Source: an uncultured Lachnospiraceae bacterium (lineage in GTDB: Bacteria; Bacillota; Clostridia; Lachnospirales; Lachnospiraceae). Taken from it: a DNA stretch of 39,850 bases. This document shows, piece after piece, positions 6,710-9,932 of the stretch. The notes below the pieces were generated by a model. The model searched no databases. It was given only the letters and a program-made list of their open reading frames with translations, and had not been told where the DNA came from. Position numbers and translations under genes: made by a program. The stretch lies in contig CANRMC010000007.1 of NCBI GenBank assembly GCA_947631605.1, positions 1 to 39,850 on the forward strand, given 5' to 3'. How positions within the stretch are numbered: position 1 is the first letter of the stretch; the number at the start of each line of letters is the position of its first letter.

Positions 6710-6738
6710 GAAGAGCAGTTACATCTGTCCGAAAAACG

Positions 6739-6772
6739 GCGGGAACACTTTCAAGGTGTTTCCGCTTTTTTT
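6739..6772 (+). terminator. intrinsic terminator after rplA
   Basis: A 10-bp stem (GCGGGAACAC with GTGTTTCCGC, one G-T wobble), a 7-nt loop and a run of seven T. It closes the ribosomal-protein operon 30 nt after the rplA stop. Confidence 0.9.
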
Positions 6773-6808: not shown

Positions 6809-6837
6809 TTGAAGAATTGGAAGAATTTCGCTATACT
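6809..6837 (+). promoter_or_regulatory. SigA-type promoter for the ACP cassette
   Basis: TTGAAG at 6809-6814, a 17-nt spacer and TATACT at 6832-6837, about 50 nt before the ACP start. Together with the preceding terminator it shows that the ACP cassette is its own transcription unit. Confidence 0.8.
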
Positions 6838-6888
6838 TATGGTATGAATAAAATTCCGGAAATGTATGGCCAAAGGAGGATTTGATAA

Positions 6889-7140
6889 ATGGACAGAGAC
6901 ACAATAAACGCAGAGCTGATTGACCTGATCAGGGAGGTTATGCCGAATATCGATGAAGATGTGAATCTGAACGCTTCCATTACAGAGCAGTACGGGGTGA
7001 ATTCTGTTTCTATCATCCGATTAATCGTTGCGGCAGAGAGCAAGTTCAATGTTACGTTTACGGATTATGAACTTGCGTTATCTTCGTATGAAACGTTCGG
7101 AGATTTTGCGGCGGTTATCGCTCAGAAACTAGAAGCATAA
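6889..7140 (+). CDS. free-standing acyl/peptidyl carrier protein
   Basis: 83 residues, an acidic four-helix carrier-protein pattern. The phosphopantetheine attachment site is Ser39 in YGVNSVSIIRL, with Asn instead of the usual Asp before the serine and Val-Ser-Ile after it. This differs from fatty-acid AcpP (GADSLD) and suggests a specialised carrier. It has a strong ribosome-binding site (AAAGGAGG), its own promoter, and is followed 25 nt later by an unknown protein and then by a Sfp-type transferase able to activate it. It may be used in a small natural-product or modification pathway, or for amino-acid/acyl loading; nothing in the window names the substrate. Confidence 0.88.
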   Translation: MDRDTINAELIDLIREVMPNIDEDVNLNASITEQYGVNSVSIIRLIVAAESKFNVTFTDYELALSSYETFGDFAAVIAQKLEA

Positions 7141-7165
7141 TTTTTGTTTTGGAGGTGTAAGTAAA

Positions 7166-8230
7166 ATGGCAAATATAAAGAAATTACCTGTTTCATATCC
7201 GATGATCACTTCATGGCAGTGGCATGCAACACTTTTCTCAATCCTGTCGCAGGATGAGAATGCGAAGAAATGGATTTTCAGCAACTATATTCAGATCAGA
7301 TGTTATAACATTCAGGAGATCTTTACCGGAGATGATATGCTTCTTGCAGACATCATGCCGGGCAGCAGCTCCCTCAAGGAATGTCCTTATCTGATCACAT
7401 CTCTGATGACGAAACAGCAGATCGAAAGCTACTGCGGAAACATCATTGATTTCATCATCAAGACCATTGATCTGGACGGCTATGTATATGGTGTGTTTGA
7501 TGAAGCAAAGATTCTTTGTGACGCAGAAGTTGATTATAAGTTCCCGCATGAGCTGTTTATTTACGGCTACAATATGGACGAAGAAGTATTCTATGTCGGA
7601 GACTTTACATTTAAGGATCATTATTCCTACAGCACCGTATCCTTCAAGGACGTAGAAAAAGGATATGATGTTATTACGGCTTCCGACGATCATATGTTTA
7701 AAGATGATTATAAGGGAACCAGAGGTCTGTATGTAATCCTGAAGAACAGCGATACGCCATATTATGACGTAGATATTACGCTGATCCGTGATACCCTTCG
7801 CGAGTATCTGAACTCCGTTGATACGAAGAATCATTTCCGTATGATGCGGAACCGTTTCAGCGATACGACGTTCGGCGTGAATGTATATGACAGGGTTCTG
7901 GAGAGGATCCAGAAGCAGATGGAATCCGAGGAACCGGATTTTGATATCCGTGCCCTGCACCTTATGTACGACCATAAGGTACTGATGTTTGAGCGTTTGA
8001 AATATCTGATGGCAAACAGCTATCTTACCTATGATGAAGGGCTCCTGAAGGATTATGAAGCAGTTGTCAACAATATGCTGACTGCCCGTAACCTGTTAGT
8101 CAGAATCTCTATCACAGAGGATGTTACGGCAGCCGAGCGTTTCAAGACATACTTTGATATTGCAAAAGAGAAAGAAGTTGCAGTTCTTCTGAAAGTTGTA
8201 GCAGAACTGGACGAAAAGATAGGAAAATAA
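7166..8230 (+). CDS. unknown protein with BtrH-like/NRPS-associated traits
   Basis: 354 residues, soluble, no signal peptide, starting at ATG 7166 behind GGAGG. I do not recognise it with certainty. Residues 120-165 (PHELFIYGYNMDEEVFYVGDF, then VSFKDVEKGYD) resemble the His/Asp half of the papain/C39-like fold of the butirosin protein BtrH and related proteins in NRPS/PKS clusters, where a His lies before GY(D) and an Asp lies in the next strand (here His128 and Asp146). A catalytic Cys near the N-terminus, expected in that fold, is not evident; the corresponding area reads SWQWHATL. In butirosin biosynthesis BtrH moves an acyl group from the carrier protein BtrI, so adjacency to an ACP supports a carrier-dependent acyltransferase or a carrier-binding pseudoenzyme. 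The C-terminal 130 residues are predicted helical and polar. Confidence 0.6.
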   Translation: MANIKKLPVSYPMITSWQWHATLFSILSQDENAKKWIFSNYIQIRCYNIQEIFTGDDMLLADIMPGSSSLKECPYLITSLMTKQQIESYCGNIIDFIIKTIDLDGYVYGVFDEAKILCDAEVDYKFPHELFIYGYNMDEEVFYVGDFTFKDHYSYSTVSFKDVEKGYDVITASDDHMFKDDYKGTRGLYVILKNSDTPYYDVDITLIRDTLREYLNSVDTKNHFRMMRNRFSDTTFGVNVYDRVLERIQKQMESEEPDFDIRALHLMYDHKVLMFERLKYLMANSYLTYDEGLLKDYEAVVNNMLTARNLLVRISITEDVTAAERFKTYFDIAKEKEVAVLLKVVAELDEKIGK

Positions 8231-8260
8231 TTCCTGAGAATAATAAAAGAAAGATGTATA

Positions 8261-8295
8261 AGAGGCTGGGATATTTGTCATACCAGCCTCTTTCT
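8261..8295 (+). terminator. terminator-like hairpin directly before the PPTase start
   Basis: AGAGGCTGG and CCAGCCTCT form a perfect 9-bp stem with a 13-nt loop, followed by TTTCTT. It ends about 8 nt before the ATG of the transferase gene and takes the place where a ribosome-binding site would be. It may be a partial terminator between the 354-aa protein and the transferase, or a translational control element. Confidence 0.7.
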
Positions 8296-8302
8296 TATAA
8301 AA

Positions 8303-9019
8303 ATGCTGGAAATATATCTGTATAAACTGGAAACCAAATATTTGGAGGAAAACAGGGAGCAGCTGCTTACATCGCTCTGTCAGTGGAGGCGTGAGAAAGC
8401 AGAGAAGATAAAGAACCCAAAAGTGCAGCTTGTATCGATTGCAGCCGGACTTTTGATACAGAAGGTTTTTTCGGAGCGGTTATCTATTGATAAGGATGCG
8501 ATATCTGTTGTGCTTGGAGATCAGGGGAAGCCTATGTTCCTTTTTCCTCCGGACCGGAATGAAAAATGTGAAAAAGAACATTCCTTTCATTTTAATCTGT
8601 CACATTCCGGCGATTATATTGCTCTGGCTGTTTCAGACGCGAATGTTGGAATTGACATTGAGTGCAAAGAAGATAAAGGTCTGCGCGTAGCAAAGCGGTG
8701 TTTTACGGAATCGGAATATGCTTATATCATGGCTGAGAAGGAAGAATTGCGTATGCAGGCGTTTCGTGATATATGGACGATGAAAGAAAGCTTTTTAAAA
8801 TTTACAGGAACAGGCATTTCCGTTCCGCTTCATTCATTTTCCATAGATATGGAGAACCATGCCGCGGTGACAGATTCCGGTGAGAAAGTGAAATTTTTTC
8901 TGCATCGGTTTGGAACGGATCCGGAATATAGTATGGCTGTCTGTTATGCGCCTGCCGGACAGAGATTTTTCAAAAAGCAATCATTAAGTCTTGACATCCA
9001 TGAGGTTTTGAAGTTATAA
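8303..9019 (+). CDS. Sfp-type 4'-phosphopantetheinyl transferase
   Basis: 238 residues, the usual size for Sfp-type enzymes. The family blocks are present: an N-terminal CQWRREKAEKI segment, NLSHSGDYIALAVSD near residue 95, the magnesium-binding VGIDIE motif and WTMKESFLKFTGTG with the catalytic Glu/Lys region. The enzyme transfers phosphopantetheine from CoA to the serine of carrier proteins; the ACP 1.2 kb upstream is the obvious partner, although such enzymes can also serve AcpP. ATG 8303 aligns with the expected N-terminus, but there is no Shine-Dalgarno sequence, only the tail of a hairpin. A tRNA promoter is buried in its last codons. Confidence 0.9.
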   Translation: MLEIYLYKLETKYLEENREQLLTSLCQWRREKAEKIKNPKVQLVSIAAGLLIQKVFSERLSIDKDAISVVLGDQGKPMFLFPPDRNEKCEKEHSFHFNLSHSGDYIALAVSDANVGIDIECKEDKGLRVAKRCFTESEYAYIMAEKEELRMQAFRDIWTMKESFLKFTGTGISVPLHSFSIDMENHAAVTDSGEKVKFFLHRFGTDPEYSMAVCYAPAGQRFFKKQSLSLDIHEVLKL

Positions 9020-9049: not shown

Positions 9050-9123
9050 GTGCGTTTAGCTCAGCTGGATAGAGCGTTTGGCTACGGACCAAAAGGTCGG
9101 GGGTTCGAATCCTCTAACGCACA
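9050..9123 (+). tRNA. tRNA-Arg(ACG)
   Basis: A cloverleaf is seen: acceptor GTGCGTT/AACGCAC (7 bp, perfect), D-arm GCTC/GAGC, anticodon stem TTTGG/CCAAA with loop CTACGGA (anticodon ACG), and T-arm with TTCGAAT loop. The discriminator is A, and CCA is not encoded. ACG is normally deaminated to ICG and reads CGU/CGC/CGA. Confidence 0.95.
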
Positions 9124-9195: not shown

Positions 9196-9534
9196 ATGGG
9201 CAGCGTATATTCTCTGAATACAATTAAAAATAACTGTGTTCCAATTGCGAGAGAATACGGGATTACGAAACTCTACGTATTTGGCTCTTATGCAAGGGAA
9301 GAACAAACAGAGGAAAGTGATATTGATATTCTTATTGAAAAAGGTGATATAAAAAATCTTTTACAGTATTTTGGATTTGTTTCTGAACTGGAGAATGTTT
9401 TTAACGTTCATGTGGATGTTGTGACGACAACGAGTAATGATAAAAGTTTTTTGGATCGGATAAAAAAGGAGGCAATACTCATCTATGATTCAGAAGGACA
9501 GAACAATTTTACAGAAAATAAGGCAGTATTGTGA
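9196..9534 (+). CDS. mntA: MntA-type nucleotidyltransferase antitoxin (type VII TA)
   Basis: 112 residues, minimal nucleotidyltransferase (MNT) fold. The motif GSX10DXD is exact: Gly30-Ser31, ten residues, then Asp42-Ile-Asp44 (GSYAREEQTEESDID). In characterised MntA/HepT pairs this enzyme transfers AMP from ATP to a tyrosine of the HEPN toxin and so blocks its RNase activity. The gene overlaps the HEPN gene by about 50 nt, the typical gene order in many such pairs. GGAG lies 10 nt before ATG 9196. The region is more AT-rich than its neighbours, which suggests acquisition. Confidence 0.9.
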   Translation: MGSVYSLNTIKNNCVPIAREYGITKLYVFGSYAREEQTEESDIDILIEKGDIKNLLQYFGFVSELENVFNVHVDVVTTTSNDKSFLDRIKKEAILIYDSEGQNNFTENKAVL

Positions 9535-9826
9535 TGATGTAGAGGCATTAATAGAGCGTTTTGGAGATGATTATACAATATATGAATCTGATTTTGCCTA
9601 TCAATATGCCTGTAGCATGTGTATTATTCAAATAGGAGAATTGACAGGGCAATTATCAGAGGAAATAAAAAATGCTTCTCCTGACGTGCCATGGAATCTT
9701 ATTAAAGGAATGCGAAATCTATTTGCGCATGATTATTCTCATGTAGATAATGAAATTGTTTGGGAAACCTTAAAAAGTAACATTCCTGAATTGAAACGAA
9801 AATGTGAAGAAATTTTATCGGCATGA
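9485..9826 (+). CDS. hepT: HepT-like HEPN-domain RNase toxin (DUF86)
   Basis: 113 residues, all-helical HEPN fold. The catalytic and regulatory motif RX4HXY is intact: Arg77, His82 and Tyr84 in RNLFAHDY. In the known systems Arg and His form the RNase site, and the tyrosine is the residue AMPylated by MntA. The start ATG 9485 lies inside the end of mntA, implying translational coupling. Stop TGA ends at 9826 on the first base of the following terminator. With tRNA genes on both sides, tRNA as a target or an integration hot spot are both conceivable, but neither is shown. Confidence 0.9.
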   Translation: MIQKDRTILQKIRQYCDDVEALIERFGDDYTIYESDFAYQYACSMCIIQIGELTGQLSEEIKNASPDVPWNLIKGMRNLFAHDYSHVDNEIVWETLKSNIPELKRKCEEILSA

Positions 9827-9855: not shown

Positions 9856-9860
9856 ATAAG

Positions 9861-9932
9861 CTGGGCTACAAGGATTCGAACCTTGAAATGCTGGAGTCAG
9901 AGTCCAGTGCCTTACCATTTGGCGATAGCCCA
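9861..9932 (-). tRNA. tRNA-Gln(CTG)
   Basis: On the - strand: acceptor TGGGCTA/TAGCCCA, D-arm GCC/GGC, anticodon stem CTGGA/TCCAG with loop CTCTGAC (anticodon CTG), T-arm CAAGG/CCTTG with TTCGAAT. The discriminator is G, and CCA is not encoded. The CTG isoacceptor reads CAG only, so a TTG isoacceptor is expected elsewhere. Confidence 0.95.

Follow-up and report, generated by a model that had tools for sequence, protein, structure and literature searches.

Can a carrier protein and a transferase-like protein, encoded side by side and apart from any large assembly line, form an acyl-transfer system of their own, and which enzymes would belong to it? This question is raised by a locus in a 39,850-nt stretch of DNA (the window) from an uncultured Lachnospiraceae bacterium (GCA_947631605.1, contig CANRMC010000007.1). 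A preliminary description of the window had proposed a minimal carrier-dependent transfer cassette, made up of an acyl carrier protein (ACP), a BtrH-like protein of 354 aa that lacks the catalytic Cys, and a dedicated 4'-phosphopantetheinyl transferase (PPTase). In butirosin biosynthesis the partner carrier of BtrH is BtrI. Our analysis upholds the BtrH/C39-like fold, the link to an ACP and the lack of a condensation domain in the genome, but not the dedication of the PPTase.

The three open reading frames have the positions, lengths and motifs that had been described for them (Table 1), and the terminator after rplA is present as well. Less is left of the new promoter postulated downstream of it: a promoter-like site does exist, but its score is no better than that of many chance sites. 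A terminator-like hairpin that separates the 354-aa gene from the PPTase gene had been missed. The three open reading frames are real genes and not chance frames, because 54 relatives of the 354-aa protein at 67-85% identity were recovered by scanning genome contigs, non-synonymous divergence of its gene is about 0.1 while synonymous sites are saturated, and an ACP gene lies upstream in all 60 orthologous loci inspected (see below). Between the two tRNA genes downstream of the PPTase gene, two small overlapping open reading frames (9196-9534 and 9485-9826) resemble, by eye, an MNT-type nucleotidyltransferase/HepT-like pair.

Table 1. Features of the locus and its flanks (positions refer to the window).
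Feature	Position	Strand	Remark
Intrinsic terminator after rplA	6738..6766	+	13-bp stem, then T run
Candidate sigma-70 promoter TTGAAG-17-TATACT	6809..6837	+	9/12 consensus only, weak
Stand-alone acyl/peptidyl carrier protein (ACP), 83 aa, phosphopantetheine site Ser39 in YGVNS	6889..7140	+	Pfam PP-binding
354-aa Cys-less BtrH/C39-like (papain-like) carrier-protein transferase-fold protein	7166..8230	+	Fold and profile match
Ex-Cys site, codons 15-26 of the 354-aa gene (TSWQWHATLFSI)	7208..7243	+	Longest invariant block of the protein
Terminator-like hairpin between 354-aa gene and PPTase gene	about 8260..8292	+	10-bp stem, -18.6 kcal/mol, z -2.1
Sfp-type 4'-phosphopantetheinyl transferase (PPTase), 238 aa	8303..9019	+	ACPS + AASDHPPT_N
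tRNA-Arg(acg)	9050-9123	+	Just 3' of PPTase gene
tRNA-Gln(ctg)	9860-9932	-	3' of PPTase gene

The carrier protein matches Pfam PP-binding with an E value of 2e-8. Its attachment residue had been given as Ser39 in GVNS, and this serine is indeed kept in 55/55 aligned sequences, the preceding Asn38 in 47/55. Four PP-binding matches were found in the source genome, two of them stronger than the ACP of the locus; one weak match adjoins an AMP-binding gene and looks like a Dlt pair.

In order to define the conserved unit, we inspected the six-frame neighbourhoods of the 54 close relatives and of six more orthologues (60 loci; a few contigs end soon after the gene). In 60/60 loci the ACP gene immediately preceded the 354-aa gene, and a PPTase gene directly followed the pair in 30/60. 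Many of these loci have, like the window, a strong hairpin 3' of the 354-aa gene; in other loci the 354-aa gene and the PPTase gene overlap or are at most about 20 nt apart. For this reason the ACP/354-aa gene pair is the conserved unit, to which the PPTase gene is variably coupled. The pair stays joined while its genomic site varies, adjoining rplA in about half of the loci and lying elsewhere in the rest. The ACP, and above all the PPTase, diverge faster than the 354-aa protein. The expected neighbourhood of ACP, this family and PPTase was thus recovered for the ACP among orthologues, but for the PPTase in half of them, and most distant homologues have neither.

The Sfp-type assignment of the PPTase was confirmed by an ACPS domain (E 1.8e-18) and an AASDHPPT_N domain (E 2.9e-9). 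It is the sole PF01648 match in the source genome, which is 97% complete. Of 28 other genomes, some having the pair and some lacking it, 26 yielded exactly one PPTase; the open frames were about 210-281 aa long. Since it is the only PPTase detected and a single copy is the rule elsewhere, the enzyme is most likely a general one that also serves the fatty-acid ACP, as judged from gene content, and its adjacency to the pair is therefore no evidence of dedication. A self-contained cassette with its own PPTase, as the preliminary description had it, is consequently very improbable: only this one PPTase was detected although the genome has other ACPs, half of the loci have no PPTase gene beside the pair, and a hairpin intervenes here. 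What speaks for such a cassette is the close spacing or overlap of the genes in some of the loci that do have the PPTase beside the pair, and the finding that, among Lachnospiraceae genomes drawn evenly, it adjoins the pair in 7/7 that have an orthologue. PPTase genes are found as neighbours in two other families as well (L108, L104), which hints at a carrier-related role. The Lachnospiraceae genomes examined mostly have just one PPTase gene, of the Sfp type, and lack an additional AcpS-type gene.

To which family does the 354-aa protein belong? Direct single-sequence searches gave no significant match in Pfam, NCBIfam or PDB, and PF14399 (BtrH_N) matched neither this protein nor anything else in the source genome. 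A structural model was obtained with AlphaFold from 51 orthologues (pLDDT 77, pTM 0.79; confidence is low at residues 113-127, and one model of five was good). A Foldseek search of PDB with this model returned AziU3 (E 1.5e-7), CtaG (1.8e-6) and CcbD (2.7e-5) as the sole significant matches; afterwards E jumps from 8e-4 to 0.24. Fold matches of the model to viral proteins were not significant, and no relative was found encoded on viral contigs.

Sequence profiles lead to the same group of proteins. A class-wide search (relatives in 23/341 genomes) supplied most of the distant relatives that were collected into a 40-sequence alignment, the profile of which matched Cys-containing BtrH_N proteins of the same class with E 1.6e-16 over 325 columns; with reversed or shuffled versions and with unrelated families as null controls, E was >=0.11. 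A profile of the orthologues alone matched the Cys-containing set with E 4e-5, covering the part from the His onward. The broad alignment gave chance-level matches only when searched as a profile against PDB. Two relatives (L133, L122) pass or graze the Pfam cut-off for BtrH_N, and two more (L059, L124) match below it. Together, the Foldseek matches, the profile match with its nulls and the relatives at the cut-off make the assignment to the BtrH/C39-like fold and superfamily firm, as the preliminary description had supposed from the sequence. According to the literature, BtrH_N is a close relative of C39 and C70 (PMC10318531).

The characterised members of this fold differ from the 354-aa protein in several respects. 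To BtrH and PF14399 it is linked by profile homology over about 325 columns, the conserved His and a carrier-protein partner, but it has neither the catalytic Cys nor a PF14399 match, and no butirosin-type biosynthetic genes lie nearby. With CcbD and LmbD, the lincosamide condensing enzymes, it shares the fold, a similar length (about 347 aa) and a carrier-protein partner. CcbD moves a CP-bound acyl group onto an amine, forming an amide, by a ping-pong mechanism with a Cys-His-Glu triad (PMC12945683); the Cys used by CcbD, for which a C19S mutant structure exists in PDB, is absent from the 354-aa protein. CtaG of closthioamide biosynthesis, proposed to move a peptidyl or acyl group between carrier proteins (PMC6772006), has the same fold and also comes from an anaerobic clostridial host, and its PDB variants name C11, H128 and D144. 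Unlike the 354-aa protein, CtaG has the Cys (C11A variant), and the ATP-grasp and other genes of its cluster are missing here. AziU3 is the best fold match and by sequence matches the Cys-containing BtrH_N set (E 7e-8). Together with AziU2 it is the azinomycin aziridine synthase, which acts by sulfate displacement (PMC12559475); this is a different reaction, and no AziU2-like partner was identified at the locus.

In the Cys-containing BtrH_N set both Cys and His are invariant. His128 of the 354-aa protein, in the motif PHELFIYGY, aligns with this invariant His (H159 of L136) and is found in 40/40 highly divergent relatives; W36 and G134 are invariant in the 40-sequence alignment as well. The catalytic-Cys column is occupied by Gln18 (in TSWQWHATLFSI) in the 354-aa protein and by L, P, Q, S, H, V or T in relatives, and none of 49 branch members, NRPS-terminal domains included, has Cys there (0/49); the register of this column could be one off, and the neighbouring columns are likewise without a conserved Cys. 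Candidates for a substitute Cys were rejected: columns 46, 73 and 118 contain Cys in part of the sequences, without conservation across the branch, and position 16 is Cys in 4/40 only. D146, in YVGDF, is kept in 51/51 orthologues; in the broad 40-sequence set its column is Asp in 22/40 and Gly in 16/40. Of the features that had been pointed out in the preliminary description, the conserved His and the missing Cys are upheld.

The segment at the former Cys site, T15-I26, consists of 12 consecutive residues that are invariant in 51 Lachnospiraceae orthologues, the next longest run being 5. A run of 12 was reached in 7/20000 shuffles, a value that is indicative only, since shuffling ignores the natural clustering of conserved sites. 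Because this segment is the longest invariant block, the ex-Cys site appears to be constrained and not decaying: going by conservation, decay is unlikely and re-purposing likely.

These observations bear on the view that the 354-aa protein is a pseudoenzyme, i.e., that it lost catalysis and kept its fold for binding ACP or cargo, as a carrier-protein-binding scaffold, a sensor or a chaperone. That the entire branch has lost the nucleophile, and that D146 is poorly conserved outside the orthologues, is in line with this. However, a catalytic His in every one of the highly divergent relatives, and an ex-Cys segment that is the most invariant part in orthologues, would be unusual for a dead active site. 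We regard a pseudoenzyme as rather improbable.

The 354-aa protein belongs to a broad clostridial branch of Cys-less BtrH-type proteins. In a tree, this branch and the Cys-containing set fall on opposite sides of a branch with an SH-aLRT of 96; many branches are long, so that deep placement is unsure. Some members make up the C-terminal part of NRPS or PKS-NRPS proteins from clostridia, in two cases as a tandem pair. In Paenibacillus, members neighbour NRPS genes on a plasmid and also occur in a cluster that encodes two carrier proteins, adenylate-forming enzymes, a decarboxylase and a P450. Further settings are a position between an ACP plus adenylation-like (adenylate-forming-like) gene and an ABC exporter, a fusion with an ABC ATPase (L113) and, in other Lachnospiraceae, a place adjacent to ACPs (L198, L205). 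The two proteins with tandem domains (L109, 7931-16027; L124, 3029-10906) are clostridial KS-ACP-C-A-PCP proteins, and the two Cys-less BtrH-like domains at their ends occupy the place where a thioesterase would be expected. At L108 (6705-7736) a frameshifted copy precedes an intact copy, which is then followed by a PPTase gene.

The link to carriers is strong for the clade of the 354-aa protein and only partial for the branch. In about 30/43 non-orthologous loci the profile search detected no carrier domain, whether in the member protein itself or up to about 1.6 kb away, and on this ground some branch members may not be carrier-dependent. The many distant copies that stand alone would also suit a pseudoenzyme.

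What would the pair do? No match to the NRPS condensation domain PF00668 was found in the source genome, which agrees with the earlier suggestion that no NRPS/PKS module is involved. We consider that ACP and Cys-less BtrH-type protein form a two-gene module that acts on an ACP-tethered group by direct, His-assisted transfer, and rate the chances of this as about even. The PPTase of the locus would arm the ACP, which another enzyme would load, possibly fatty-acid synthesis or one of the few adenylate-forming enzymes of the genome (its AMP-binding matches are in frames of 147-573 aa). The 354-aa protein would then dock the holo-ACP and act on the thioester-bound group in a pocket around the invariant His128. 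An acceptor activated by His128 may directly attack the ACP thioester, yielding an amide or ester with no acyl-enzyme intermediate, comparable to the attack in NRPS condensation domains. Direct attack is the most likely chemistry, since the whole branch lacks the nucleophilic Cys.

The two-gene module is favoured by the fold and profile matches, the invariant His, the constrained ex-Cys block, the ACP in all 60 loci and the relatives that are NRPS C-terminal or ACP-adjacent. Several points count against direct transfer: AziU3, the fold match, synthesises an aziridine instead of transferring an acyl group; no loading-enzyme or acceptor gene is conserved beside the pair in the orthologue neighbourhoods examined; the majority of distant loci have no carrier; D146 is often replaced by Gly; and the model is weak just before His128, with a single good one among five. 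We know of no activity for any Cys-less member, and count this against direct transfer as well.

The AziU3 match raises a further explanation, namely that the His pocket carries out chemistry other than transfer on a carrier-bound substrate, such as a cyclisation or an elimination, as AziU3/U2 do in the azinomycin pathway. A best fold match described as an aziridine synthase (PMC12559475) and a Cys that is missing from an extremely conserved block are what a re-purposed active site of this kind would lead one to expect. On the other hand, genes for tailoring enzymes that would prepare the substrate (e.g., a sulfotransferase) are not among the conserved neighbours, and the tandem copies at NRPS C-termini better fit a release or transfer step. 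We rank direct transfer first, and place non-transfer chemistry behind it as an unlikely explanation, on a par with the pseudoenzyme.

The main point extends beyond the locus: a whole Cys-less BtrH-type branch, some members of which are NRPS terminal domains, was missed by family-model searches of the 354-aa protein, and no paper describing such a family was found in the literature searched. Sequence comparison points to a separate, uncharacterised branch of a carrier-dependent BtrH-type family in gut and rumen bacteria. Tentatively, and with somewhat less confidence than we have in direct transfer at this locus, we suggest that the branch as a whole condenses or releases groups directly from carriers, using a re-purposed, constrained ex-Cys site, either with stand-alone ACP partners or as (tandem) C-terminal domains of clostridial NRPSs. 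If its members are active, the papain-like transferase fold could process thioesters on carriers with no acyl-enzyme being formed, and clostridial NRPS assembly lines, like a very small ACP module of rumen and gut Lachnospiraceae, would gain an unannotated domain type. The 354-aa protein has no Pfam or NCBIfam match, relatives in two plasmid records are annotated as 'hypothetical protein', and cluster-finding tools would easily overlook such loci.

Nearly all close relatives are labelled Lachnospiraceae or related rumen/gut clostridia. Among 298 evenly drawn Lachnospiraceae genomes, eight have the close form (the source genome and seven others at 65-85% identity) and nine further genomes have only relatives of ~19-30% identity, so that the distribution within the family is patchy. 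Pyruvate:ferredoxin oxidoreductase (17 loci), a tubulin-like gene and FabF/CLF clusters recur upstream or downstream of the pair; they were considered as a required third operon partner and rejected as lineage-specific synteny. In one lineage (L176, 7150-15800; L177, 7585-16000) the ACP/354-aa pair is separated from the sole PPTase gene by a cluster with genes for a FabF/FabF-type fused ketosynthase, an ACP, a PlsC-like acyltransferase, FabG-like and FabZ-like proteins and a flavodoxin-like reductase.
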